Part shown: piece by piece, positions 44,623 through 58,462 of the stretch | Layout of the letters: every line of letters begins with the position of its first letter | Position numbering within the stretch: position 1 is the stretch's first letter | Assembly: GCF_001026695.1 (NCBI RefSeq) | Contig: NZ_LDNB01000002.1 | Location: 407,029 to 471,028, forward strand | DNA from: Neobacillus vireti | GTDB lineage: Bacteria; Bacillota; Bacilli; Bacillales; Cytobacillaceae | Length of the DNA: 64,000 bases | Direction: 5' to 3' | The notes under the pieces: model-generated | The model's input: the letters and a program-made list of their open reading frames with translations, nothing else | The model's database searches: none | What the model was told of the DNA's origin: nothing | Made by a program: the position numbers and the translations under genes

Positions 44623-45609
44623 ATGAGCTTTTTCAAAAAGTTAAAGGAAAAAATTACGAAATCGACGGATTCCGTAACAGAAAAGTTTAAAGAAGGTTTG
44701 ACGAAAACAAGGGATAGCTTCTCTGGAAAGGTCAATGACCTTGTGGCCAGATATCGGAAAGTCGATGAAGACTTCTTTGAAGAATTAGAGGAAATCTTAA
44801 TTCAGGCTGATGTCGGCTTTGGCACGGTTATGCAGCTGATCGATGAGCTTAAGATAGAGGTCAAACGCCGCAAGATTCAAGACCCGAAGGAAGTTCAAAG
44901 TGTTATTTCCGAGAAGCTTGTTGATATTTATAATGCTGGGGAGGAACAATCCTCACAATTAAATATCCAGAAGGACGGGCTGACAGTAATATTATTTGTC
45001 GGGGTTAATGGTGTTGGAAAAACAACGACGATTGGCAAACTTAGTTATAAGTTTAAGAGTGAAGGGAAAAAAGTATTGCTGGCTGCGGGTGATACCTTCC
45101 GTGCCGGAGCGATTGAACAGCTTGAAGTATGGGGTGAAAGAGTTGGCGTCGAGGTGATTAAACAGGCTGAAGGCTCTGACCCGGCAGCAGTTATGTACGA
45201 TGCTATCTCTGCGGCCAAATCCCGCCAAGCAGATATTTTACTCTGTGACACAGCCGGCCGCTTGCAGAATAAAGTGAATTTAATGAAAGAACTTGAAAAG
45301 ATAAAGCGTGTAATTGAGAGAGAAATTCCTGGTGCACCACATGAAGTCATTCTTGTTCTAGATGCGACAACCGGGCAAAATGCGCTTATTCAAGCGAAAA
45401 CCTTTAAGGAAGTAACCAATGTTACGGGGATTGTCCTTTCGAAATTGGACGGAACAGCGAAAGGCGGCATCGTGCTAGCGATTCGCAACGAATTAAAAAT
45501 TCCCGTAAAATTCGTCGGTCTAGGTGAAAAAATGGATGATCTTCAAGAATTTGATGCAGAAAAATATGTTTACGGCTTATTTGCTGATCAGGTTGAAGAA
45601 ACAGAATAA
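44623..45609 (+). CDS. ftsY: Signal recognition particle receptor FtsY
   Basis: FtsY is the membrane receptor for the signal recognition particle and pairs with Ffh (encoded at 58475). The 328 residues have an N-domain, then the GTPase G1 GVNGVGKTTTIGKL near 125, DTFRAGAIEQL, DTAGR and TKLDGTAKGG. A basic amphipathic N-terminus is the membrane-targeting helix. A strong terminator follows, before an unrelated operon. Confidence 0.97.
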   Translation: MSFFKKLKEKITKSTDSVTEKFKEGLTKTRDSFSGKVNDLVARYRKVDEDFFEELEEILIQADVGFGTVMQLIDELKIEVKRRKIQDPKEVQSVISEKLVDIYNAGEEQSSQLNIQKDGLTVILFVGVNGVGKTTTIGKLSYKFKSEGKKVLLAAGDTFRAGAIEQLEVWGERVGVEVIKQAEGSDPAAVMYDAISAAKSRQADILLCDTAGRLQNKVNLMKELEKIKRVIEREIPGAPHEVILVLDATTGQNALIQAKTFKEVTNVTGIVLSKLDGTAKGGIVLAIRNELKIPVKFVGLGEKMDDLQEFDAEKYVYGLFADQVEETE

Positions 45610-45626
45610 ATTGAAAAGCATGGATG

Positions 45627-45657
45627 AAAACAGCAGCTAAAAACTGCTGTTTTTTTA
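45627..45657 (+). terminator. Terminator after ftsY
   Basis: AAAACAGCAG and CTGCTGTTTT form a stem with loop CTAAAAA and a run of seven T. It isolates the next operon from rnc-smc-ftsY. Confidence 0.9.
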
Positions 45658-45693
45658 TTATATTCCAATTTTAATTGCATTTTTTGGATAAAG

Positions 45694-45707
45694 GTGTAAA
45701 AATACAC
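45694..45707. promoter_or_regulatory. 14-bp palindrome before the ABC/MoxR operon
   Basis: GTGTAAAAATACAC is an inverted repeat (GTGTA, AAAA, TACAC), 116 bases before the first gene of the eight-gene operon. The surrounding gap 45658-45822 is AT-rich. No convincing sigma-A promoter was found. It may be an operator. Confidence 0.35.
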
Positions 45708-45822
45708 TAAAAGACATTTTTGTGGATGAGATGGAAATAATTAAAAACTTTTATAAAATTGTAGTGTGGTAGAGAGAATTTTTCGTCAATTTAATAGACA
45801 GGCTTTTAGAGGGGGAATTTTT

Positions 45823-48192
45823 TTGCTAAAGAAAAAGCTATTATTTATTTTATTGTTATGTCTTTTTTTTGTGAATCAAGGAGTTGAGCCAACAAAGGCT
45901 GAAAGTAATTTTATCAGAATAGCAGTAAAGGAAGGCTTTGATGGAAAGATAAAAAGCGGGCGCGGCTTTCCTATTCAAGTGACAGTTGAAAACAGCGGTG
46001 CTGATTTTAGCGGCGATATCCTTTTCAACTTTGCCACTTCCTATAATTCAAGCGGAGCAAAGGCAATTTCAATCGATGTACCAAAGGGGAGTAAAAAAAC
46101 CTATTCCCTTTCAATCCCAGCCTATTCAGAAGACTATTCCAATAATGGTCAGATAAAACAATCGATATTCTTATATAAAGGCAGCTGGAAGGATAATCAC
46201 GAACAAGACTTTATTGGCGATAAAATGTTAAAACCTAAATATATTGACCAAGACAAAAGGACAATTGGCTTCCTTAGCGAGGATTCCGATCGTCTGAAAG
46301 AATTGAAGGTTATGGCCTTAGCTAATCAAATCGAACCAATCGTGCTCACTGAGGACATGGTTCCTGAAGATGAAATCGGTTTAGATTCACTGGATTACAT
46401 ATTGATAGATGAGTTTGCTATTTCAAAGTTTAAGAAACCGCAACAGCAAGCAATCCTGAACTGGATTCAAAACGGCGGAAAATTAATTGCTGGGGCGGCT
46501 CCAAATGCAGCCAGTTCCTATGGAAGCCTATACCAAGTTCTGCCGATGAAACCTGATAAAGAGGTGGCTGCCGAAACGAAGTTCTTCCAGTTAACCCCGG
46601 CATTACTTGCATTTCAACACATCCCAGTCTTTGTTGGACAAGTGGAGGTGGGAGCTGAAATTACTGTAAGAAGCGGTGATTTACCGATGGTCGTTCATAA
46701 AGGCTACGGCGCAGGGGAAATTTGGCAAACGGCATTTTCGCTCGGTGATGAACCGCTTTCTTCCTGGAAGGAATATGGACAATGGTTTGCAGCGAGCCCG
46801 ATGCTTAGCAGTACGTCTAAGTCTCAATTACAAAATGGCGGTCAAAACCCATTTGACATGTTATTTAATGAATTCGCAGAGATAAATGAATATTTCTCTT
46901 CCACTCAGTTTTCTGTGGGACAGATTAGTTTGTTTCTGTTCATGTATCTCCTGCTGCTCGCTCCGTTTCTCTATTTCTTGTTAAAAAGGCTGGATAAACG
47001 CGAGCATGCCTGGTGGATTATTATCGGTGCAGCTGTCCTATCATCCGTTGGCATCTTTGCCATCGGGGCAAAGGACCGGATTGCAAAACCGCAAATGAAT
47101 CAAACGGGAATTTATAAAGCAGAAAATGACCAGTTAACAGGTCTTGAGGCTGTTACCCTCCTATCTAACACTAGCGGTGATTATCAGGTAGGCTTCTCGA
47201 AAGGGAGCTTCTATGGTGTACCCGGCCCATCGAATATGGCTGTAAGTGATGGGAAACGTTATGCTGTTCTCGAGAATGGCCGGAAATCCAGCAGTGTTAC
47301 ATTTCCGAATGTGGAATTTTGGGCAACTAGAACTTATTTTGGGCACGCCTCTAAGCAAAATGCCGGTCAATTTGATATCAAGCTATCTTATGAAAATAAA
47401 AAGTTAACTGGAACAATCGTCAACCAATTTCCATACGATTTTGAAGAACTATACATTTGGTCTGGAAGTCAAAAAATTAACCTTGGGTCGCTGAAGCGGG
47501 GAGAAAGTTTAACGGTAAACGAAACATTTCAGCAGGATTATCTGGCTGGACCATACAGTCAGGGGAATTCCTTCCAGGTTCCAAACTCACAGCAGGAAGT
47601 GGATAAATTTAAAAAGAAAAGAATGGAATATGTTGCGATTGAAAATTTGTACAACAATTCCCAATCGGAAAATCAACCAATTCTATATGGCTACACAAAG
47701 GACTCAGTTATTGAAGCAGATATTAAAGGAAAAAACGAGTCTATAAAAGGATTAAGCTTAATTTATCAAACATTAGCATTAGACACGAAGTTTTCAGGTT
47801 CATTTACAATCAAGGATGACATGCTAAGGACCCATCTTAATATAATCCATGGCGGATTCTTTAATGATAGCTCGGAAAATCGCCGTGAAATGGATCTTGA
47901 TGATGGTGAATATGATTATGTCTTAGAACTCCCGAACCAATTGTCAAAAATGAAACGTGAGTTCAAAGATTTAGAGATTACGTGGCAAGGTACAAATATC
48001 ACCTGCTCACTGCTAAATCATTCAAACGGCACATTCTTGCCGTTAACTAATTCTCCTGCGGTCATCAAGGAACATCTTGATGAGTTTATATCAAAAGATG
48101 GAGTTATCACCATAAAATTAATAAAAACAGGACAAGGTGACCCTCATGTTAGGATGCCTGCGCTTTCAATAAAGGGGGAAATCAGCCAATGA
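45823..48192 (+). CDS. Secreted/membrane ectoprotein with amidotransferase-like region, first gene of ABC-MoxR-VWA operon
   Basis: Function is unknown. The 789-residue protein starts with TTG 45823, 7 bases after AGAGGGGG (45808-45815). It begins with a signal peptide (MLKKK, then a hydrophobic run to about residue 27). A beta-rich ectodomain follows. Around residues 175-300 there is a stretch resembling class I amidotransferase-like folds (LDYILIDEF, LNWIQNGGKLIAGA, later GAGEIWQTAFSLG), without an obvious catalytic triad. Two membrane helices lie at about 366-387 and 397-416, with a second external beta-rich region (417-789). An in-frame GTG at 45766 would mask the signal peptide. Its stop overlaps the next gene by 4 bases. 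It may be the outside-facing component of the ABC system. Confidence 0.85.
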   Translation: MLKKKLLFILLLCLFFVNQGVEPTKAESNFIRIAVKEGFDGKIKSGRGFPIQVTVENSGADFSGDILFNFATSYNSSGAKAISIDVPKGSKKTYSLSIPAYSEDYSNNGQIKQSIFLYKGSWKDNHEQDFIGDKMLKPKYIDQDKRTIGFLSEDSDRLKELKVMALANQIEPIVLTEDMVPEDEIGLDSLDYILIDEFAISKFKKPQQQAILNWIQNGGKLIAGAAPNAASSYGSLYQVLPMKPDKEVAAETKFFQLTPALLAFQHIPVFVGQVEVGAEITVRSGDLPMVVHKGYGAGEIWQTAFSLGDEPLSSWKEYGQWFAASPMLSSTSKSQLQNGGQNPFDMLFNEFAEINEYFSSTQFSVGQISLFLFMYLLLLAPFLYFLLKRLDKREHAWWIIIGAAVLSSVGIFAIGAKDRIAKPQMNQTGIYKAENDQLTGLEAVTLLSNTSGDYQVGFSKGSFYGVPGPSNMAVSDGKRYAVLENGRKSSSVTFPNVEFWATRTYFGHASKQNAGQFDIKLSYENKKLTGTIVNQFPYDFEELYIWSGSQKINLGSLKRGESLTVNETFQQDYLAGPYSQGNSFQVPNSQQEVDKFKKKRMEYVAIENLYNNSQSENQPILYGYTKDSVIEADIKGKNESIKGLSLIYQTLALDTKFSGSFTIKDDMLRTHLNIIHGGFFNDSSENRREMDLDDGEYDYVLELPNQLSKMKREFKDLEITWQGTNITCSLLNHSNGTFLPLTNSPAVIKEHLDEFISKDGVITIKLIKTGQGDPHVRMPALSIKGEISQ

Positions 48193-49124
48193 TTGAAATC
48201 ATCGATTTAACCAAAAAATACGGAAAGTTTACCGCCCTTGATTCATTAAATCTAACAATTGAAAAGGGTACTGTTTTTGGCTTTGTTGGACAAAATGGTG
48301 CCGGCAAATCTACTACGTTTTCGATTTTAGCGACCTTGTTATCTCCTACTTCGGGAACGGCGTATATTAATGGCCATAATATTTCAAAGGAACCAAAAAC
48401 GGTCCGCAGCCAGATAGGCTATATGCCCGATTTCTTTGGCGTCTATGACCAGTTAAAGGCTGTCGAATATTTGGATTTCTATGGAGCGAGCTATGGGATC
48501 AGCCAGAGTGAGCGAAGCAAATTGATTCCCCAGCTTCTTGAATTAGTAAATTTAACGCAAAAACAAGATTCATATGTCGATGTGCTGTCAAGGGGGATGA
48601 AGCAGCGGCTCTGCCTTGCACGGTCATTGATACATGATCCGGAAGTACTGATTCTCGATGAGCCTGCTTCCGGTCTTGACCCGAGAGCACGGGTGGAAAT
48701 GAGAGAAATCTTAAAAGAACTAAAGAATATGGGGAAAACCATTTTGATCTCTTCGCATATTCTTCCTGAACTGGCAGAAATGTGTGATTCCATCGGGATT
48801 ATTGATCAGGGTCGATTAGTAGCGGAAGGGTCAGTTAATGAAATCCAGCAGCGTCTTAGGGGGGAAAAGCTAATCATTGCCAAGCTGTACCGAGAATTAG
48901 ACAGAGCGGTAAATTTTTTCGAGGACCAGCCGCTGGTGAGTCAATTGGCGAAACGGGATGATGGGGAATCGCTTCAGTTCATGTTTAAAGGAAGTGTGGA
49001 AGAACAGGTACAAATGTTAAAAAATGCTCTATTACATGATATCCCGATTGTCAGCTTTTCGGAAATCGAAACGAATCTGGAAGATGTCTTCATGGAAATA
49101 ACGAAAGGAGTGGAACTTTCATGA
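48189..49124 (+). CDS. ABC transporter ATP-binding protein (CcmA/GldA-like)
   Basis: This is the ATPase of an ABC-2 type exporter. In its 311 residues Walker A is GQNGAGKST (34-42), the Q-loop region IGYMPDFFGVYDQL, the signature LSRGM (133-137; usually LSGGQ or LSGGM), Walker B VLILDEP (to residue 159) and the switch His in SSHILPE. The C-terminal ~80 residues are an accessory domain ending LEDVFMEITKG, common in drug/polymer export ATPases. It overlaps the permease gene by 4 bases, so the two are partners. Substrate is unknown. Confidence 0.93.
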   Translation: MIEIIDLTKKYGKFTALDSLNLTIEKGTVFGFVGQNGAGKSTTFSILATLLSPTSGTAYINGHNISKEPKTVRSQIGYMPDFFGVYDQLKAVEYLDFYGASYGISQSERSKLIPQLLELVNLTQKQDSYVDVLSRGMKQRLCLARSLIHDPEVLILDEPASGLDPRARVEMREILKELKNMGKTILISSHILPELAEMCDSIGIIDQGRLVAEGSVNEIQQRLRGEKLIIAKLYRELDRAVNFFEDQPLVSQLAKRDDGESLQFMFKGSVEEQVQMLKNALLHDIPIVSFSEIETNLEDVFMEITKGVELS

Positions 49125-49969
49125 GAAATCTTCTACTTAATCCCGTATTAAATAAGGAATTTAAGCTAAGGTTCCGCTCATTTAAAGGTTTTCTCGGACT
49201 AGCTTTTTATTTACTGGCACTTTCCATCTTGATTATTGGCTTTATTTATTTAGATACCCGGAACTCACCGATGGGGCTGTTCCGACCAGATCAAAGCAGA
49301 AGTATGTTTATGATGCTGTCGTTTATTCAAATGGGGTTAATTCTGTTTATTACCCCGGGGTTAACGGCAGGTGTTATTAGCGGTGAACGGGAAAAGCAAA
49401 CATTAAATATTTTATTAACAACGAATCAGAGCTCAACGAGCATTATTTTAGGCAAACTGATTTCGTCTGTTTCATTTTTATTATTGATGATAGTGGCGAG
49501 TATGCCTATTTACAGCATTGTCTTTCTGTTTGGCGGAATTTCTCCCGGACAGGTAGTAACCATTCTAGGGTATTACATCTTTACCATCTTTGCATTCGGA
49601 AGTATTGGCATCTTCTTCTCGACACTTATCCGAAGAACCATCATTGCGATGATCAGTACCTACGGGGTAACCCTTTTTCTAACAGCGGGTACAGCTTTTC
49701 TATATGCCATATCAATGTCGGTCAATCAAATGGGGATGGCCACTAATAATCCCGTTCCCTATTTCTTTGCCATGCTCAACCCAATGATGAATCTCCTCGG
49801 TTTTCTTGAACCGGATGCATTTAGAGAATTATCCAGCCAATCTGGGGTGGGAATCGATTTCCCATTATGGGCAGCCTATTTGATTTCTTATACGATTATT
49901 TTTCTCGTTATGCTGATGATCAGTATCCGGAAGTTGCGTCCAAATATGAAAGTAAGGTCGAAAGAATAG
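49121..49969 (+). CDS. ABC-2 type transporter permease (GldF-like)
   Basis: The membrane partner of the ATPase has 282 residues and about six membrane helices (about 22-45, 62-85, 110-135, 140-165, 175-195, 245-270). The cytoplasmic motif ISGEREKQTLNILLTT after helix 2 is typical of ABC-2/GldF permeases. It is followed within 10 bases by the next gene. It could export a polymer or lipid, or act mechanically; the sequence does not say which. Confidence 0.9.
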   Translation: MRNLLLNPVLNKEFKLRFRSFKGFLGLAFYLLALSILIIGFIYLDTRNSPMGLFRPDQSRSMFMMLSFIQMGLILFITPGLTAGVISGEREKQTLNILLTTNQSSTSIILGKLISSVSFLLLMIVASMPIYSIVFLFGGISPGQVVTILGYYIFTIFAFGSIGIFFSTLIRRTIIAMISTYGVTLFLTAGTAFLYAISMSVNQMGMATNNPVPYFFAMLNPMMNLLGFLEPDAFRELSSQSGVGIDFPLWAAYLISYTIIFLVMLMISIRKLRPNMKVRSKE

Positions 49970-49979
49970 GATGAGGAAA

Positions 49980-51530
49980 ATGGAGGATAAAAGCCAGTTT
50001 TATCAGTTGCTGAAGCCTGTTCTCAGGCAGCTCCTAATCAAAAGGACGGCAGTGGAAATCCACTATTGGCTGCTAGCTGCCTCAGTCTTCTCAGTGCTGC
50101 TCCTATTGGCGGCGCGGGTTTTGGTCATTCCTTTCTACCATGAAGTGCTTTGGAGTGGCTGCTTCCTCCTTCTACCGGTATTTGTTTTTCGGATTTGGCG
50201 GAATCAGCCGGGGTGGAGGGAAGCGGCACAGCTATTTAACGCTTATATTCCTGAAGACCGCGTCATAACAGCCCTATCGTTTTTAGATGAAGAGGGGATG
50301 CTTCAGAAATTGCAACTTGCTGAAGCAATCACCTTGATGAAAAAGGAACAGCACCGTGTTTTGGCACGGAAAAAAGGCTATTTTTCACCAAAGTGGCTCT
50401 TGATAGCTGCGGTTTTCTTTTGTCTCACAGCACTCCTCAATTTTTTGCACAATCAAAATCTGCAATTAGCGGCAAAAAAAGAAACGGAAATGGCGATCAT
50501 GAAGAAGGTCGAAAAAAAGCTGGAAGAAAAGGCGAAAAAGGAACAAAACAAGGAAGTGAAAAAAGCGCTGGAAAAAGCTCAGGAATTAATGATAAAAACC
50601 TCCAACCCTAAAGAAGCATTATCAGCGTTAGCTAAACAAAAAAAAGAGCTGGAACTAAAAGCCTTAAAGGAACAGGAAAAACAAGAAAACTTCCAAGCAT
50701 GGCTGCAGGAATTGAAAAATAGTGATTTAAATAAATTGGCGGCTGCTCTGGAAACGAAGGATAGTAAAAACATCCAAAAAGAACTGGAACAGTTAAATAA
50801 AAAATATAGTTCATTAACCGAAAGTCAAAAGAGGGCACTCAGCAGGATGAGTGGTTCAGATAAAAAGCTTTCGGAAAAAGAAGTAGCAGAACTCACGAAG
50901 AAGATTTCCGAAGCACTAAACTCAGAAAATAAACTGACGGAACTTGCTGAAGCAAAAGCTGCACTTGGTGAGGCGGCTAATAGCCTGCAAAGCGAAATGC
51001 TAGCTAACGGAATTCAGTCCGAACAACTTGCCGTTAATCCATCCAGCCAGTCTGAGGGAGGAAAGTCGAACAGTCAAAACAGCAAAAATGGCAATCCTTC
51101 AAGCGCTTCAAATGGAAGCGGCCAAGGACAGCAGCCCTCAGGAAAAGAATCACAAGGCAATGGTTCACAAGGGAATGGAAATGGCTCTGGAAACGGAAAT
51201 GGGACAGGTGCTGGCAAGGGCTCGGGAACAGGAGCGGGAGGAGCCGGTGCCGGGCTGGGGCCGGGTTCCCGTCAACTGCTTACTATTCCAGAGAAATTAG
51301 CTGGTAAAAACAATCTTGAAACAGATTCCGGAAAGATTGGAAAGGGCAGGCCGACAGAACAATATGAAGGCAATGGACCGATCTTAAAAGGACAGCTTCG
51401 TTCCTACCAAGAAGTATATGGGAATTATGCAGATGTCTATCGAAAAAGTACCGACCGGGTAAAACTCCCTGCTGATTTAGAAGAAATCGTCAAAAACTAT
51501 TTTTTATTGCTTGATCCCAATAAGGAGTGA
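49980..51530 (+). CDS. Membrane protein with K/E coiled coil and Gly/Asn/Ser-rich linker (DUF4175-like architecture)
   Basis: Not firmly recognised. The 516 residues have three N-terminal membrane helices (about 28-50, 56-73 and 138-156), a highly charged Lys/Glu coiled coil (about 163-350), a low-complexity Gly/Ser/Asn/Gln linker (about 353-430) and a compact C-terminus with SYQEVYGNYADVYRKS and LPADLEEIVKNYF. This layout recalls DUF4175-type proteins beside MoxR/VWA genes in other phyla (from memory). ATG 49980 is preferred because AGGA (49968-49971) is 8 bases upstream; ATG 49971 is the alternative. Base composition in the linker is unusually G-rich. Confidence 0.8.
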   Translation: MEDKSQFYQLLKPVLRQLLIKRTAVEIHYWLLAASVFSVLLLLAARVLVIPFYHEVLWSGCFLLLPVFVFRIWRNQPGWREAAQLFNAYIPEDRVITALSFLDEEGMLQKLQLAEAITLMKKEQHRVLARKKGYFSPKWLLIAAVFFCLTALLNFLHNQNLQLAAKKETEMAIMKKVEKKLEEKAKKEQNKEVKKALEKAQELMIKTSNPKEALSALAKQKKELELKALKEQEKQENFQAWLQELKNSDLNKLAAALETKDSKNIQKELEQLNKKYSSLTESQKRALSRMSGSDKKLSEKEVAELTKKISEALNSENKLTELAEAKAALGEAANSLQSEMLANGIQSEQLAVNPSSQSEGGKSNSQNSKNGNPSSASNGSGQGQQPSGKESQGNGSQGNGNGSGNGNGTGAGKGSGTGAGGAGAGLGPGSRQLLTIPEKLAGKNNLETDSGKIGKGRPTEQYEGNGPILKGQLRSYQEVYGNYADVYRKSTDRVKLPADLEEIVKNYFLLLDPNKE

Positions 51531-51535
51531 CTCAA

Positions 51536-52543
51536 TTGACACAATTAAAAGAGAAAGAAACTCAATTTATCACGGCAGCGGAACAGCTTAAGACGGTAAA
51601 GCAAGAGCTAATGAATTTTATCGTTGGCCAAGAGGAAGTGATTGACCAGGTACTATGGAGCATTTTCTCTGGAGGACATGTGTTATTGGAGGGGCTGCCG
51701 GGGCTTGGAAAAACAATGCTTGTCCGGTCGATTGCGTCATGCCTGGATTTATCGTTTAATCGAATCCAATTCACACCTGATTTAATGCCATCTGATATTA
51801 CTGGAACGATGATTCTGCAGCCGGGAACCGACGGCCGGCAGGAGTTTGCCTTTCATGAAGGGCCATTGTTTGGCCATATTATTTTAGCTGATGAAATAAA
51901 CCGGGCCACTCCCAAGACACAAAGCTCTCTATTAGAGGCAATGGCCGAGCAAACGGTAACTGTTATGGGCAGCACAAAACAGCTTTCCAAGCCCTTCTTT
52001 GTGCTGGCAACGCAGAACCCGATAGATATGGAAGGCACATACCCGCTCCCTGAGGCACAAATGGACCGGTTTATTTGTAAAATTCATGTCGGCTATCCGA
52101 CCAAAGCAGAACTAAAAGAGATTGCCTTAAGAACGACAGGCCTAAAAGTTCCTCAATTAAATAAAATATTAGGATCATCAGAAGTCTTAGCCTTACAGCA
52201 GCTCTCGAAGGAAATTTTAGTCTCAGATGATTTATTAAATGCGGCCGTATCGATAATTGATGCTACCCATCCGGCTTCAGCGGAAGCACCGGAAAGAATC
52301 AAACAATATGTTCAATTTGGGAGCGGCCCCCGCGGATTACAAAGTCTTATCCACATGGCAAAAACGAGAGCACTATTTGCCGGCAGATACCATATTTCAA
52401 TCGGCGATTTAAAGAGGACGGCCATCCCGGTCTTAAGGCACCGGCTTTTATTGAATTTTGAAGGAGAGGCAAACGGTGTGACCCCGGATGACCTGATTGC
52501 TGATGTATTGGAGCAGGCTGGAAAGGATGTTAGTCAGCGATGA
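51536..52543 (+). CDS. MoxR family AAA+ ATPase
   Basis: MoxR AAA+ ATPases act as chaperone-like machines that mature or activate protein complexes, usually with VWA partners. The 335 residues have Walker A GLPGLGKT (residues 54-61), Walker B ILADEINRATPKTQSSLLEAM (Asp 119, Glu 120) split by the pre-sensor motif, sensor 1 FVLATQNPIDMEGTYPLPEAQ, and a C-terminal lid domain with GPRGLQ. TTG 51536 is preferred over GTG 51527 since AAGGAG (51522-51527) is 8 bases from the TTG. It lies directly before its DUF58 partner. Confidence 0.94.
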   Translation: MTQLKEKETQFITAAEQLKTVKQELMNFIVGQEEVIDQVLWSIFSGGHVLLEGLPGLGKTMLVRSIASCLDLSFNRIQFTPDLMPSDITGTMILQPGTDGRQEFAFHEGPLFGHIILADEINRATPKTQSSLLEAMAEQTVTVMGSTKQLSKPFFVLATQNPIDMEGTYPLPEAQMDRFICKIHVGYPTKAELKEIALRTTGLKVPQLNKILGSSEVLALQQLSKEILVSDDLLNAAVSIIDATHPASAEAPERIKQYVQFGSGPRGLQSLIHMAKTRALFAGRYHISIGDLKRTAIPVLRHRLLLNFEGEANGVTPDDLIADVLEQAGKDVSQR

Positions 52544-53409
52544 CAGCCCAAATGCATTCCATGCTTTCACGACTGCAAAAACGGAGATTAATGGCGAAAA
52601 CCCGGAGGCGCGGCGCTCATAAAGGGGGGAGGACGGCGAATAAATTTGGTGCTTCCCTGGAATTTTCAGATTTTCGTCTTTATCAGCCCGGCGATGATGT
52701 CCGCCAGATAGACTGGAATATTTACGGCCGGACGCAGAGGCATTATATTAAACGGTTTTTAGATGAACAAGAATTAGCAGTTACCGTTTTTTTGGACGCT
52801 TCGAGTTCGATGCAGGCAATTGTTTCAAAATGGAAAAGAGCAAAGGAGCTCGCTGCCGCCTTTAGTTATATTACTCTTAGCGGTGAAGATCGCTTGTCGT
52901 TCATTCCTGTTTCGTCGGTGTCATACGCAAAGGTAAGTAGGAAAGGGTCTGTATATGGTAAAACTGTATTTTTTGAAATCCTCCAGTTACCAGAACAGCA
53001 AGCAGCAGGAACATTTACGGACAACCTTCAAAAAAACAGCTTGAAGAATAATCAGCTGGTGATTCTTATCACGGACGGTCTTGAGCCGCTTGCTTCATTT
53101 GAAGCGCTTTTTCGATTAATTGCTGCCGCTAAACAGGAGGTTAAACTAATCCAACTATTGAGCAGGGAGGAACTCGACCCAATTTATTCGGGCGATGTAA
53201 AATTAATTGATAGTGAGTCAAATGAAAGTGTGAATGTTACGATGAGTGATTCGATTCTCGTAAACTATCGAAAGCAAGTAACAGAGCATAATCGCAGTCT
53301 TGAAGCATTATGCCGCCGATTTGGGTTCAGTTATTTATTAACGGCAGATGATGCTGACCTTAATGATTTTTTGTTTCATGAGTGTTGCGCAAAAAGAATC
53401 CTTTATTAA
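52540..53409 (+). CDS. DUF58 domain protein with VWA-type metal site
   Basis: This is the usual partner of MoxR ATPases. The 289-residue soluble protein has the DUF58 signature FSDFRLYQPGDDVRQIDWN (43-60) and IYGRTQRHYIKRF, then a VWA-type DASSS metal-site motif (86-90) and later LVILITDGLE. The long N-terminal membrane helices seen in some DUF58 proteins are missing. Its start overlaps moxR by 4 bases. I infer that it is the substrate or adaptor remodelled by the MoxR ATPase. Confidence 0.92.
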   Translation: MTAQMHSMLSRLQKRRLMAKTRRRGAHKGGRTANKFGASLEFSDFRLYQPGDDVRQIDWNIYGRTQRHYIKRFLDEQELAVTVFLDASSSMQAIVSKWKRAKELAAAFSYITLSGEDRLSFIPVSSVSYAKVSRKGSVYGKTVFFEILQLPEQQAAGTFTDNLQKNSLKNNQLVILITDGLEPLASFEALFRLIAAAKQEVKLIQLLSREELDPIYSGDVKLIDSESNESVNVTMSDSILVNYRKQVTEHNRSLEALCRRFGFSYLLTADDADLNDFLFHECCAKRILY

Positions 53410-53424
53410 CCAGAGGTGATGAAG

Positions 53425-55200
53425 ATGTACTTTGCTAACAGATTGTTTTTTATACTTGTCATTTTTATCGCCTTTGTTGTGTTATTATATTTTTTCCGCA
53501 AACAATACAACGCGGTCATCAACCCAGCTAATCTCCTTTGGCAGCAGGCTATGAATGAGTGGAATGCCTCGCCTTGGATTCAAAAATTACAGCAAAATCT
53601 CTTGTTTTGGCTGCAAATCGCTGCTCTTACATTATTAATGTTGGCATTGGCAAAACCGATATGGTTCTCAGAAGGGATTAAGGGGAATCAAATCATTTGG
53701 ATTGTAGATACATCGGCAACAATGTCAGCGATGAAGGCGGACAAGCCGCTCATTGAACAATCTAAACAACAAATGAAGCAAATGGCCGAGCGCTTAACTG
53801 GTCAGGAAGTAACCATGATTATTGCCGGTGCAAAGCCGAAAATCCTATTGAGCCGGGAAACCGATGCAGCCGTGATTCAACGGGAGATTGCGGGGCTTAC
53901 TGTTACATACGAACATGAAAATATCGAAAAGGCTGTAAAGCTTGCAGAATCACTAGTACACAATAAAGATACGGTGATTCATTTGTTTTCTGATTCTGTG
54001 AAAAAGGCAGACATGAAAGCAGATCTTACTAATATCCCCTATGAGATTCACAATGCTGCCGGCATACAAGATAACGTCGCCATCCTTTCCTTTGGGGTTG
54101 CGGCTAAAGAAAAACGAATTTCCGGACTGGCCGTTTTGGAAAACCAAGGGAAGAAGCAGGTAACATATCCCTTTGTCATTACCAGTGAGGATTCGGTTGT
54201 TTTTCAACATGAAGTAACAATTCCAGCCGGTCGACAAGTGGTGATAAATATTCCCGATTTGCCGGAGCACCGCTTTTATCAAGCGTCGATAAAAGCTGGG
54301 GATCATTATACGGCTGATAATGAATTAACAGCTGTTTACTCAGACTTGAATCCGACCATCCATGCACTTGGCGAAGTGAATCCCTTTTTTATTAAAGGGC
54401 TGGAAACCTTGGGCATCAAAGCAGTCCAGCTTGATGCAAAAAACTCTCTAGCATTAAAGGAAAGTGGAATCATTCTTGCTGAAGGCCTTCCTGTTAATGA
54501 ATTGCCGAAAATGCCGGTTATTTACATTAACAAATCCAAAAATCAGGATGAACTCATAGAAGTAAAGGAACCAATCGAGAGCATGGGTTCGCCGCTTACA
54601 GAATATGTTGATCTCGGCAAAACCTACATAAAATACGCGTCAAACCCGATAAAGGGAAATTGGGAAAACATTGTAACTAGCGGCGAACACCCGCTGATTC
54701 AAACGGGAACAATCAATGGACAGCCGGCTATCCTGATGAATTTTTCGCTTGAGAATACCGATTGGCCGCTGCACCCGGGGTTTCCAATTTTCCTCTATAA
54801 TAGCTATCAGTGGCTGTCAAAGCAAACAGGCTTTCTTGGTTATTTTCAGCCTGGCGAGGAAAAATGGCTTCAGCTTGATAGTAAAAAGTCCGTTTTGGAA
54901 ATCTATAATTCTACTGGAAAGAGCTTATCAACGCTCCAGTTAAATACGGAGAATTTTAAAGCTCCCTATAAACCAGGAATCTATCAAGCCGTAGCTGATG
55001 AACATGTGTATTATTTCTCAGTTCTGCTTGATGATCGCGAAAAAAAACCGGAGACAGCCCCGTCGTTTAGATTAAATCAATCAACGGCAAATGATACTGA
55101 ACTGGCCTTGAAGCCAAATGAATCATTATGGTTTTGGCTGACGCTCATCGTACTGGCACTGCTTATGGTGGAATGGGAGGTTTATCGAAAATGGCTATAG
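53425..55200 (+). CDS. BatA-like membrane protein with VWA domain
   Basis: The 591-residue protein has an aerotolerance/BatA-type N-terminus: a first helix at about 4-24, then a second at 60-82, then a VWA-like domain beginning IIWIVDTSATMSA (Asp 95; metal site DTSAT rather than DxSxS). A beta-rich part and a region with weak amidotransferase resemblance follow, and a third helix lies near the C-terminus (about 568-586). ATG 53425 follows AGAGGTG with 6-base spacing; GTG 53416 and ATG 53419 are less well placed. It overlaps the next gene by 10 bases. It was not assigned a specific substrate. Confidence 0.85.
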   Translation: MYFANRLFFILVIFIAFVVLLYFFRKQYNAVINPANLLWQQAMNEWNASPWIQKLQQNLLFWLQIAALTLLMLALAKPIWFSEGIKGNQIIWIVDTSATMSAMKADKPLIEQSKQQMKQMAERLTGQEVTMIIAGAKPKILLSRETDAAVIQREIAGLTVTYEHENIEKAVKLAESLVHNKDTVIHLFSDSVKKADMKADLTNIPYEIHNAAGIQDNVAILSFGVAAKEKRISGLAVLENQGKKQVTYPFVITSEDSVVFQHEVTIPAGRQVVINIPDLPEHRFYQASIKAGDHYTADNELTAVYSDLNPTIHALGEVNPFFIKGLETLGIKAVQLDAKNSLALKESGIILAEGLPVNELPKMPVIYINKSKNQDELIEVKEPIESMGSPLTEYVDLGKTYIKYASNPIKGNWENIVTSGEHPLIQTGTINGQPAILMNFSLENTDWPLHPGFPIFLYNSYQWLSKQTGFLGYFQPGEEKWLQLDSKKSVLEIYNSTGKSLSTLQLNTENFKAPYKPGIYQAVADEHVYYFSVLLDDREKKPETAPSFRLNQSTANDTELALKPNESLWFWLTLIVLALLMVEWEVYRKWL

Positions 55201-57986
55201 AGCTTAAATATCCCATCCTTCTGCTATTAATAATACCGGCTTCTTTTCTGGTTTATCGATATTTTAAACAAATAAGTGCTTCAATCAGTCCTGAAAAAGT
55301 GGTGATTGGCTGTCTAAGAGCGGTTCTATTTTTCTTGATTATTTTTGCGCTGACGATTCCGCAAATTTTGCTGCCAATTAAAGAGGAAATGATTATTTTT
55401 CTTACAGATCGCTCCGCAAGTTTTGAAGATGCGGAAACCGGGGTAATCGAGTGGATTGATGAAAGCACCCAATCAAAGAAAGCAAATCAATCATTTGCGA
55501 TAGCGTCGTTTGCTGATGGTGTGATTGTCGAACAATCGCTGTCAAATAAAAAAACAGTGTTAGATCAATTTAACGGGAAAGTGAAAAATGGTGAAACAAA
55601 TCTAGAAGAGGGAATTGGCTTCGCTGCTTCACTGCTGAAAACAGGGCAAAGCGGCAGGATTGTCCTTTTATCCGATGGAAATGAAACGGTCGGTACTAGT
55701 AAAGAGGCTGCGAAACTATTAAAAAATCAGAGGCTTGAGTTAGATTATGTCCGATTCAAGCAAAAGTTTCGTGAGGATATGGCCATCACAAGGCTGGATG
55801 TTCCACCCACTTTATATGAGGGAGAAAAAGCAAATATTGCGGTTTCGATTGCAAGTAATGTCGAAAAAACAGCTGATCTAAGAATCTCCTTAAACAACAA
55901 AGATATTCTCCATGAGAAGGTTACTGTAAAAGAGGGGCAAAATGAGTTTACCTTTTCAGATAATGCCGCTGAGCCGGGAATGTCGATTTATAAGGCTGAG
56001 ATTGCCGCGGAAAAGGATACCTTTAGCGAAAATAATACCCTCTATGCGGTCACAAATGTCAAGGGAACACCAAGAGTACTCGTAGTTCAAGGAAATCAAG
56101 ACGACCCATTAGCAGAAATTTTACAAGCCTCTGGGTTAATCACCGATAAGCTTATTCCCGAGAGGCTTCCAACAACCTTGGCAGGATTTTTGCAATACCA
56201 ATCGATCATTTTTAATAATGTTCCTGGAACGAAGGTCAGCGAACAGCAAATGAATTTGATTGAAAAAGCAGTCAAAGAATTTGGCACCGGCTTTGTGATG
56301 CTCGGTGGAGAGGACAGCTTTGGTCTCGGCGGTTACTTTAAAACACCAATAGAGAAATTGTTACCTGTCGACATGGACATTAAAGGAAAAAAAGAGATGC
56401 CCTCACTTGGATTGGTAATTGTTATTGACCGGTCTGGAAGTATGAGCGGCAATAAACTGACATTAGCGAAGGAAGCGGCAGCACGATCGGTAGAGTTATT
56501 GCGGGAAAAAGATACGCTTGGCTTTATTGCCTTTGATGACCGCCCATGGGTGATTGTTGAAACCGCACCGCTTGAAAACAAGAAAAAGGTTATTGAAAAA
56601 ATCCGCTCTGTTTCTGTTGGCGGCGGAACGAATATTTACCCCTCACTTGAAAAGGCTTATCAAGAGCTAAATGATTTAAAGCTGCAAAGAAAACACATTA
56701 TTTTGTTAACGGACGGACAGTCAGCCGCTGGCGGTGATTATCAAACGCTTATTTCAGAGGGGAAAAAAAATAAAATAACGTTGTCAACGGTTGCCTTAGG
56801 CTCGGATGCCGATCGAAACCTGTTAGAAGACCTTGCCGGTCAGGGGAGTGGACGATTTTACGATGTTACCGATGCGTCTGTTATTCCGAGCATTCTTTCA
56901 AGGGAAACGGTTATGACCACAAGAACCTATATTGAAGACCATCCTTTTTATCCTGTTGTGCAGCCCTATCCAGAATGGACAGCCATTTTTGAACAGGGAA
57001 TTCCAAAAATGAATGCCTATATTGCGGTAACCGCGAAAGATAGGGCGCAGGTGCCGCTTATTAGTGAAAAAAAGGATCCGGTTCTTGCAGAATGGCATTA
57101 TGGTTTAGGAACCACCTTAGCGTTTACGTCTGATATGACGGGAAAATGGTCTGGTGACTGGGCTAAATGGGCTAACTGGCCGCAATTTTTGAATACTCTG
57201 GTAGTAAAGTCGCTGCCACAATATGACAGCGAGCCGTTCCGTTTTACAATTGAAAAGGAAAATGACAATACGGTGGTCCAATTAAAAGCAGCAGATGGGC
57301 AATTTAGTCCATTAGATGTATCTGTTGTTTCACAAAATGGTACGGTCATCGACACAAATTCTAAGCCGACAGCTCCAGGTGAATTTGAAGTGAGTTTTCC
57401 AAATAAGCCCGGTATGTATTTTTTGCGTGTGAAACAAACGAGCGAGGAAGGGCAGGATAAATTGTTTCAAACAGGCTTTTCGGTTCCCTATTCGGATGAA
57501 TATTTGTTAAAAGCAACCAATACTGCTTTATTAAAAGAGCTCGCGGAGCTTACAGGCGGAAAAGAATTGCAGGCGGCAAAGGAAGCGTTTCGACCGTTAC
57601 AACAAAAGCCAAAACGCAAAGAACCAATTAGTGAACAGCTTTTATTAGCTGCTTTCCTCCTGCTTGTGTTCGAGATTCTAATAAGGAGACTAGGCTTTCA
57701 GCCATTTCTATCCTTACTGCACCTGCGGAAGAAACCCTCGAAAAAAGGTGAACAGGAAGGTGCAGCAGTATTAAAGCAGCTTTCAAGGGCGAAGGCAAAG
57801 GTGAAGTCAAGGGTTGAAAGTAAACGAGAGGTAACAGAATCTAAGCAAGAAAAAACGAAGGAAAAGCGGCGGGAACCTTCGCTGCCAACAGTTGCGAAAA
57901 AGCGGAATCCCGTACCGGAAGTGTCCACTGAAGAAAAGGAAGAACGCATGAAACGTTTGCTTGAAGCAAAGAACAGAAAGAAGTAA
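55191..57986 (+). CDS. Large VWA/amidotransferase-like membrane protein
   Basis: The 931 residues have two N-terminal helices (about 6-24 and 37-62), a first VWA-like domain with DRSAS at Asp 73, beta-sandwich segments (about 190-290), an amidotransferase-like stretch (about 300-400: FGTGFVMLGGEDSFGLGG), a second full VWA domain with DRSGSMSG (Asp 413) and ILLTDGQS, a further beta region, a C-terminal helix (about 814-836), and a Lys/Arg/Glu-rich cytoplasmic tail of ~95 residues. ATG 55191 follows GGGAGG. It is the last gene of the operon. It is the likely membrane-spanning hub with both outside VWA domains and an inside charged tail. Confidence 0.86.
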   Translation: MAIELKYPILLLLIIPASFLVYRYFKQISASISPEKVVIGCLRAVLFFLIIFALTIPQILLPIKEEMIIFLTDRSASFEDAETGVIEWIDESTQSKKANQSFAIASFADGVIVEQSLSNKKTVLDQFNGKVKNGETNLEEGIGFAASLLKTGQSGRIVLLSDGNETVGTSKEAAKLLKNQRLELDYVRFKQKFREDMAITRLDVPPTLYEGEKANIAVSIASNVEKTADLRISLNNKDILHEKVTVKEGQNEFTFSDNAAEPGMSIYKAEIAAEKDTFSENNTLYAVTNVKGTPRVLVVQGNQDDPLAEILQASGLITDKLIPERLPTTLAGFLQYQSIIFNNVPGTKVSEQQMNLIEKAVKEFGTGFVMLGGEDSFGLGGYFKTPIEKLLPVDMDIKGKKEMPSLGLVIVIDRSGSMSGNKLTLAKEAAARSVELLREKDTLGFIAFDDRPWVIVETAPLENKKKVIEKIRSVSVGGGTNIYPSLEKAYQELNDLKLQRKHIILLTDGQSAAGGDYQTLISEGKKNKITLSTVALGSDADRNLLEDLAGQGSGRFYDVTDASVIPSILSRETVMTTRTYIEDHPFYPVVQPYPEWTAIFEQGIPKMNAYIAVTAKDRAQVPLISEKKDPVLAEWHYGLGTTLAFTSDMTGKWSGDWAKWANWPQFLNTLVVKSLPQYDSEPFRFTIEKENDNTVVQLKAADGQFSPLDVSVVSQNGTVIDTNSKPTAPGEFEVSFPNKPGMYFLRVKQTSEEGQDKLFQTGFSVPYSDEYLLKATNTALLKELAELTGGKELQAAKEAFRPLQQKPKRKEPISEQLLLAAFLLLVFEILIRRLGFQPFLSLLHLRKKPSKKGEQEGAAVLKQLSRAKAKVKSRVESKREVTESKQEKTKEKRREPSLPTVAKKRNPVPEVSTEEKEERMKRLLEAKNRKK

Positions 57987-58047
57987 TATATATAGGGATA
58001 GTGCGGTAGTGTCTTTTCTATTAGTCCCTCTATGTAAAGATATTTTC

Positions 58048-58076
58048 TTGACAGAAATAGTATGACTGTGTAAACT
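58048..58076 (+). promoter_or_regulatory. Sigma-A promoter for ylxM-ffh
   Basis: TTGACA (58048-58053), 17 bases, then TAAACT (58071-58076), about 50 bases before ylxM. It makes ylxM-ffh independent of the preceding operon. Confidence 0.8.
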
Positions 58077-58126
58077 ACTCTTGTAAAGGCTTTTCACTTA
58101 ACATTGGTATTGGAGGGAACCCATGC

Positions 58127-58462
58127 ATGATGCTTGAAAAGACAACACGAATGAACTATCTTTATGATTTTTACTATTCGTTGTTAACACCAAAGCAGCA
58201 AAGCTATATGTCTCTCTATTATTTAGATGATTACTCCCTTGGGGAAATTGCTGAAGAATATGATGTAAGCCGTCAGGCCGTGTATGATAATATTAAACGG
58301 ACGGAAGCAATGCTTGAGGAGTACGAGGAAAAGCTGCGATTATTCCAGAAATTTCAAGAGCGCGTAAAACTAATCAAGCACGTAAAAGAATTGCTTAATG
58401 AGGAGAACCCTTCAAAGCAGGCAATGTTAGAAACTGTTGCCGAGCTTGAGAAATTAGATTAG
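58127..58462 (+). CDS. ylxM: Sigma-70-like helix-turn-helix protein YlxM (SRP-associated)
   Basis: This 111-residue protein is of the YlxM/p13 family, linked to the signal recognition particle. The motif [39 protein letters not shown] (residues about 20-58) forms the helix-turn-helix. ATG 58127 follows GGAGGGAA. The neighbouring ffh supports an SRP-related role. Confidence 0.94.

Follow-up and report, generated by a model that had tools for sequence, protein, structure and literature searches.

To our knowledge, the roles of the GldA-GldF-GldG system and of the MoxR-DUF58-VWA operons are both open questions. Here, we describe a locus in which these two kinds of modules are joined, within a window (the whole stretch of DNA analyzed) of 64,000 nucleotides from a Neobacillus genome. 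The locus consists of eight genes, g1 to g8, all on the + strand and overlapping or a few bases apart, between ftsY (44623-45609) and ylxM-ffh (58127 onward). Its first gene, g1 (45823-48192), is the subject of this study and encodes a 789-aa secreted/membrane protein, as assessed from the open reading frame and its translation, a 54-row alignment and an AlphaFold2 model. The closest described systems are the following: GldG likely forms an ATP-binding cassette (ABC) transporter with GldA and GldF (PMC5682007); the gene of an archaeal GldG-like DUF4350 protein (arCOG01314) shares operons with MoxR and vWA genes, and a role in a complex for secretion or membrane remodelling has been predicted for this set (Makarova et al, 2015, PMC5898192); and defects in the Rhizobium cmdA-D operon are reported to alter envelope and morphology (PMC5700661). 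Compared with these, g1 would be a large non-enzymatic extracellular subunit of a GldA/GldF-like ABC-2 system formed with g2 and g3 in soil bacilli, often coupled to a MoxR-VWA module, a reading toward which we lean without strong confidence.

The likeness to GldA-GldF-GldG lies in the three components: an ATPase similar to GldA, an ABC-2 permease similar to GldF, and an ectodomain protein anchored in the membrane that carries a GATase/flavodoxin-like domain. Adjoining g1 are g2 (48189-49124, +), a DrrA/GldA-like ABC ATPase (PF00005, DrrA1-3_C), and g3 (49121-49969, +), an ABC-2 permease (PF12679, E = 1.1e-7), both of which stay under the equivalog cut-offs: g2 reaches 272.1 bits with TIGR01188 (DrrA; cut-off 312.45) and 244.1 bits with TIGR03522 (GldA; cut-off 402.6), and g3 has a weak GldF match (TIGR03518, E = 2.9e-8, 34 bits for a cut-off of 288.5). 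In hhalign, the amidotransferase-like domain of g1 aligned with 30 Bacillota PF09822 (GldG-like) proteins with a probability of 32.8% (E = 4.6e-4) over 52 columns, with a score of 35.6 compared to at best 20.8 in 100 shuffles. An open reading frame from a distant relative (G243) also displays a sub-cut-off PF09822 match (3.0e-4).

The differences from GldG concern both gene order and protein build. g1 precedes the ATPase and permease genes, whereas the GldG-like gene directly follows the permease gene in 26 of 30 Bacillota PF09822 loci (L149-L178), where this upstream permease is weakly g3-like (13.6-38.3 bits); among the four loci without such a match, L154, L155 and L174 are short and L163 is not. 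In addition, g1 has a mid-protein hairpin and two ectodomains. The window g1 matched neither PF09822 nor TIGR03521 at E 0.1 in Pfam and NCBIfam, nor PF09822 at E 1 in Pfam, and PF09822 is not among the commonest 25 of the 54 Pfam families matched by the 53 other g1 members. Because of the lack of these family matches, the different gene order and the different build, g1 is not a member of the GldG family, and our best reading is that it works like GldG nonetheless. Separate PF09822 genes do exist in Bacillota, with matches over the cut-off in 49 of 299 genomes. The only one in the genome of the window is marginal (35.8 bits for a cut-off of 34.7) and lies in a 2206-aa frame elsewhere, so that there is no clear GldG in this genome.

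The likeness to the arCOG01314 system is that of a GldG-like secreted domain encoded alongside MoxR and vWA genes, and DUF4350 is matched by 18 of the 54 g1 members at E up to 1 (best 2.7e-4). The archaeal protein is reported to have a single C-terminal transmembrane helix, whereas g1 has two ectodomains and constant ABC ATPase and permease partners. As for the Bat/cmdA-D operons, their MoxR, DUF58, BatA-VWA and VWA genes correspond to g5-g8, whereas neither a g1-like gene nor an ABC pair is mentioned for them in the accessible part of PMC5700661. In the window, these genes form a single run with Pfam scores over the cut-offs: g5 (51527-52543, +) encodes a MoxR-type AAA+ ATPase (AAA_3, PF07726, 5.5e-62), g6 (52540-53409, +) a DUF58 protein (PF01882, 5.9e-28), g7 (53416-55200, +) a BatA N-terminus followed by a VWA (PF07584, PF13519) and g8 (55191-57986, +), the last gene, a protein with an N-terminal VWA, a split GATase1-like domain, a C-terminal beta region and a helix at residues 814-834. 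All parts are of known kinds. Their combination associates an ABC trio, including a subunit with two ectodomains and a mid-protein hairpin, with a MoxR-VWA module in which the dead domain of this subunit is found again. No paper on the eight-gene operon or on this combination was found among those listed in the literature searched, a scope outside which most subscription papers fall.

The g1 open reading frame extends from a TTG start at 45823 to the stop at 48192, as proposed in a previous sequence-only reading of this DNA, and is preceded by a likely ribosome-binding site (AGAGGGGG, 45808-45815). The g1 alignment retains 54 of 81 rows (the window and 80 others) after a similarity cap, leaving out L064 for its broken frame; "members" hereafter include the window protein. 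The AlphaFold2 model built from it has a mean predicted local distance difference test (pLDDT) of 83.9 and a predicted template modelling (pTM) score of 0.81. From the N-terminus, the protein comprises a predicted signal peptide (residues 1-26; 45823-45900, +) with a modelled helix at 2-18 and a likely cleavage after ...TKA, relatives showing PAKA or AEA in sequence and alignment; a beta domain (residues 27-140; 45901-46242, +; modelled strands at 31-141), for which five of the 54 members have CARDB matches at E up to 1 (best 0.0016); a class I amidotransferase-like (GATase1-like/DUF7408) domain (residues 144-332; 46252-46818, +), assigned from VIA-align and DUF7408, within which the modelled alpha/beta domain spans 146-324; a predicted transmembrane helical hairpin (residues 365-421; 46915-47085, +; helices 365-389 and 393-421); and a beta-rich second ectodomain (residues 423-789; 47089-48189, +; beta-rich over 424-787 in the model). 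The signal peptide, the two mid-protein helices and the second ectodomain claimed in the sequence-only reading are thereby recovered.

The hairpin is the best-conserved of the long segments of g1, with a mean column identity of 0.647 over residues 363-422 compared to 0.47-0.55 for the ectodomain segments. Its tip (residues 384-400; 46972-47022, +), with an invariant D-x-R-E..WW, is the best-conserved stretch of the protein (mean column identity 0.805, six of 17 columns invariant) and would lie on the cytoplasmic side.

We compared the g1 model with known structures using VIA-align, on 979 chains first selected with Foldseek. The best match to g1 residues 144-332 is 2gk3 (Z 17.8, root-mean-square deviation (rmsd) 3.1, 186 aligned residues), followed by 3soz (17.7) and 3rht (16.6), i.e. 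the GATase1-like proteins STM3548, STM1381 and a Planctomyces limnophilus protein. Lower in the ranking come IFT52 (5fms, Z 14.2; 5fmr, Z 14.1), the ThuA-like 1t0b (13.7), GH42-type domains (about 12-13), pyridoxal phosphate (PLP) synthase glutaminase subunits (about 12-12.5) and chain G of 6s7t (12.1), which we take to be OST48; the order among these lower matches is uninformative. Several GATase-fold structures thus match the domain with Z of 12.5-17.8, and the YILIDEF (the "LILIDEF-type" pattern) and NGGKLI stretches from which an amidotransferase-like fold had been deduced both lie inside it. By sequence, g1 had no match in the PDB with phmmer at E 10, and the g1 profile had three, at E 0.67-1.8, one of which is 3soz. 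Note that the titles of 2gk3 and 3soz describe cytoplasmic proteins, whereas the domain is found in secreted proteins in g1 and g8 and is split by a VWA in g8. The fold also resembles that of the GIFT domains of IFT52 and OST48/Wbp1, which are eukaryotic; the Z of g1 to them is similar to its Z to several other GATase-like proteins. IFT52 carries an N-terminal GIFT domain (PMC10191852), and GIFT domains have been proposed to bind sugars (PMC7226087).

The conservation pattern of the g1 domain is that of a dead enzyme. Class I amidotransferases require a Cys nucleophile, located at an elbow. No Cys is present within residues 146-332 in any of the 54 members, so that the domain is not an amidotransferase, and the earlier remark that catalytic residues were not seen was right as regards the nucleophile. 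Conservation concerns other residues: G218, G219, G234, G298, Q302 and F305 are invariant, and D156, P181, D196, A210, W214, G224 and P241 nearly so; no His is found among the conserved positions. We therefore give hardly any credence to g1 being an active amidotransferase or hydrolase, a reading to which the class I amidotransferase-like fold lends itself but which is opposed by these missing residues and by the probable position of the domain on the secreted side.

The same domain occurs in g8, as the sequence-only reading had suspected for the last gene of the operon. The g8 alignment contains 42 of the 71 sequences gathered, including that of the window, with residues counted from the M at 55191, and its AlphaFold2 model has a pLDDT of 80.7 and a pTM of 0.59. 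Residues 294-676 match the same entries as g1, with 3soz first (Z 27.0, rmsd 1.8, 199 aligned residues), then 2gk3 (26.9) and 3rht (24.8), and the g8 profile finds them in the PDB from sequence (1.4e-6, 0.008 and 2e-5 for 3soz, 2gk3 and 3rht, respectively). From VIA-align, the domain is made of a first half (residues 294-401; 56070-56393, +) and a second half (residues 579-676; 56925-57218, +; PF07090, 1.4e-7 at 602-666) separated by an inserted VWA (residues 402-578; 56394-56924, +), also delineated by the alignment, in which D413, S415, S417, T480 and D508 are invariant in the 42 members and presumably represent the metal ion-dependent adhesion site (MIDAS) pattern. PF07090 (GATase1_like) scores 31.8 bits in the window g8 (cut-off 27) and is found at E ≤ 0.01 in 42/42 members; it is reported for the second half only because the VWA sits inside the domain. 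In the comparison suggested earlier (about residues 150-330 of g1 and 300-400 of g8), the domains of the two proteins retrieve the same GATase1-like entries, residues 300-400 covering only the first half of the g8 domain.

A direct profile comparison agrees with the structural one. With columns 405-590 of g8 left out, g1 140-340 aligned to g8 300-680 in hhalign with a probability of 64.2 (E = 6.5e-5) over 159 columns, with a score of 36.2 compared to at best 21.5 for 100 column-shuffled profiles. In the controls, the g1 domain reached no more than 1.7% with three VWA regions and one g7 region and 1.5% with a reversed profile, the top remaining off-target pair being the g1 N-terminal beta domain and the g7 middle (7.4% over 14 columns). 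Note that the strong result needs the VWA to be left out: when its columns are kept, the match falls to 11.3% over 58 columns, as a split domain would lead one to expect. Overall, these data indicate that g1 and g8 share one domain, which in g8 is split by a VWA. No kinship of the whole proteins was found: the two beta domains of g1 gave 0.2% and 1.6% with the GATase-like domain of g8, the only g8 region compared. The supposed relatedness of the first and last proteins was thus found for this domain only.

The g7 family may carry a third copy, as judged from profile matches, in which case the domain would not be limited to the first and last genes. DUF7408 (PF24157) matches 49 of the 54 g1 members at E up to 1 (best 4.1e-10), the window g1 with 15.7 bits, under the gathering cut-off of 27, and a search of its own genome with the DUF7408 profile gave no match at E 0.001. 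The profile also matches four of the 42 g8 members at E up to 0.01 (best 2.5e-4) and, at E up to 1, two of the 19 g7 members (19 of 69 sequences aligned) at about residues 310-455 (L054, 2.5e-5 at 309-453; L051, 0.0038). We rejected g7 as a clear third copy: hhalign does not confirm it (g1-g7, 5.9% over 47 columns; g7-g8, 0.4%; g7-PF09822, 1.0%), leaving these two DUF7408 matches as its sole support. No paper mentioning DUF7408 was found among those listed in the literature searched.

To determine which genes accompany g1, we used a g1 search that returned 230 relatives, of which the best 80 loci (L014-L093) are hereafter the named loci, and 20 distant Bacillota loci picked from 46 other positive genomes, with 16-20 kb fetched for each. 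The g1-g2-g3 trio is present and in order in all 80 named loci, and adjacent in 20/20 distant ones. The complete g1-g8 order is found in 74 of the named loci (73, plus L062 with a split g6). In L052 and L058, g5-g7 are gone and the trio is accompanied by a g8 remnant; the same holds for L064, with a faint g4 remnant in addition, and for L057, where the g4 and g8 remnants abut. L068 contains the trio alone, and L061 has the trio followed by about 1.2 kb up to the locus end, without g4. The MoxR-DUF58-VWA genes are thus absent or reduced to remnants in 5-6 of the 80 named loci. L064 (9932-12386, on a Rossellomorea chromosome) also has its g1 frame in two pieces, from a frameshift or a sequencing error.

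Among the distant loci, 11 of 20 have all eight genes, L125 is interrupted within g7 by the end of its contig, and the remaining eight contain just the trio within the 16-20 kb, in genomes that display no g8 match at 1e-40. The genes following the trio in these eight mostly differ, with two exceptions: the next gene is common to L139 and L141, and a later AAA-type gene to L128 and L134. In 29 short distant loci (L095-L123, overlapping the 20), a g2 match was found in 27, the two others (L109, L110) being apparently cut by a contig end. Of five trio-only proteins inspected, four (L126, L128, L137, L139) have a readable D[KR]R[DE]..W motif at the place of the hairpin, which is missing in L136. 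The constant partners of g1 are therefore the ABC ATPase and permease, not g8. Since the hairpin is the best-conserved segment and its motif is kept in four of these five trio-only proteins, we favor the ABC pair as the probable contact of the hairpin.

These patterns bear on the earlier proposal that the first and last proteins face each other outside the cell. A census of 299 genomes gave 47 with g1 (E 1e-3), 40 with g8 (E 1e-40) and 32 with both (Fisher p = 3e-24, although the genomes are related and not independent). Together with the shared domain (hhalign E = 6.5e-5), this would be expected if g1 and g8 were partners forming a pseudo-enzyme heterodimer outside the cell, but 15 of the 47 g1 genomes have no g8 at E 1e-40, in L068 and in eight of the 20 distant loci no MoxR-VWA genes accompany the trio, and L052, L057, L058 and L064 retain g8 remnants only. 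A fixed pairing is thus not supported, g1 persisting without g8, and we consider the heterodimer quite improbable. The eight distant trio-only loci would fit an alternative in which g2 and g3 form a DrrA-type exporter of small amphiphiles or peptides, with g1 as a surface accessory or immunity-like protein and the MoxR-VWA genes fulfilling a separate function from one transcript; the DrrA family is the best curated one for g2, which also carries the DrrA1-3 C-terminal domain. Against it, the eight genes are kept in order in the 74 named and 11 distant loci (plus the one cut by a contig end), which argues for a joint function, and this alternative appears unlikely to us.

The preferred reading of g1 as a GldG-like subunit of the ABC pair has its own difficulties, and the following observations weigh against it. 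The GldG link amounts to 52 columns with a 32.8% hhalign probability, the g8 domain giving 1.0% with the PF09822 proteins, and g2 scores higher to DrrA, a drug export protein, than to GldA. The GIFT relation is not specific, since the Z of IFT52 (14.2) is within 1 of that of the ThuA-like protein (13.7) and OST-B chain G ties with YaaE-type proteins. In addition, g1 goes unmatched in 52 of the 61 genus genomes, so that its function is dispensable at the species level. Lastly, the VWA part also occurs without detectable g1, in the eight genomes with g8 and no g1 at E 1e-3 (G079, G103, G121, G142, G176, G222, G229, G305). Either their g1 has diverged or their MoxR-VWA operon lacks the ABC trio; the former is possible because G222 shares its genus, g34, with G047, G094 and G133, in which g1 matches are weak.

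In the preferred reading of an ABC-associated g1, the beta and pseudo-amidotransferase domains would be located outside the cell after signal-peptide cleavage, the hairpin would span the membrane twice and the C-terminal half would be outside too. The hairpin with its short charged tip (LK[KR]xDKREHAWW) would dock on the permease and/or the ATPase, and ATP-driven movement would reach the ectodomains through it. The ligand of the pseudo-amidotransferase domain could be a partner protein or, by comparison with what has been suggested for GIFT domains, a glycan of the cell surface. Most close relatives add to this trio a MoxR-DUF58-BatA/VWA-VWA module, whose VWA proteins are probably outside as well and whose AAA+ ATPase, g5, probably assembles or remodels the complex. 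The likely task would be either export to the cell envelope or its maintenance; an envelope role of the operon is suggested by analogy with the systems above. A more elaborate version, which we regard as doubtful, is a Gram-positive envelope machine in which the ABC motor drives an external ring or arm of dead domains from g1, g8 and perhaps g7, assembled by MoxR via the VWAs. If true, the VWA switch of g8 would be built into a dead-enzyme domain, and the operon would be a Gram-positive counterpart of gliding GldAFG joined to a Bat/MoxR system.

Within the genus, a g1 match is found in nine of 61 genomes, including that of the window, whose nearest named relative by g1 protein is N. novalis (90% identity). 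In 30 genus genomes (L179-L208), the 24 without g1 all have a gap of about 91-240 bp between ftsY and ylxM, and in all six with g1 a g8 match lies no further than 1.5 kb from ylxM. In this genus, the eight-gene operon therefore occupies the interval from ftsY to ylxM (45609-58127 in the window) on an all-or-none basis. Because ftsY also lies upstream of g1 in many loci of Cytobacillus and Niallia, an old operon was more probably lost repeatedly than gained recently. Two kinds of modules are thus joined in one optional operon of culturable bacilli and come apart in relatives, where the ABC trio is kept while the MoxR-VWA genes are lost, which offers a natural way to test the role of each part.

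The remaining gene, g4 (49971-51530, +), encodes 519 aa with hydrophobic N-terminal stretches, a charged middle and a Gly-rich tract; this tract and a conserved C-terminal segment are retained across the g4 alignment (20 of 57 sequences). No informative Pfam family is among those listed for these 20 members, and a suspected resemblance to DUF4175 was discarded as this family is absent among the 25 of 56 families listed. No g1 match was found in the plasmid collection, and a promoter scan gave 28 sites compared to 26.8 in shuffled sequences, hence no excess. Three further DUF58 loci are present in the genome of the window besides that of the operon (G000 C9, C25 and C12:296105). A terminator-like hairpin from the consensus scan lies after ftsY and before g1 (45626-45654, +), terminator-like sites in the region numbering 22 compared to 14.5 in shuffles.

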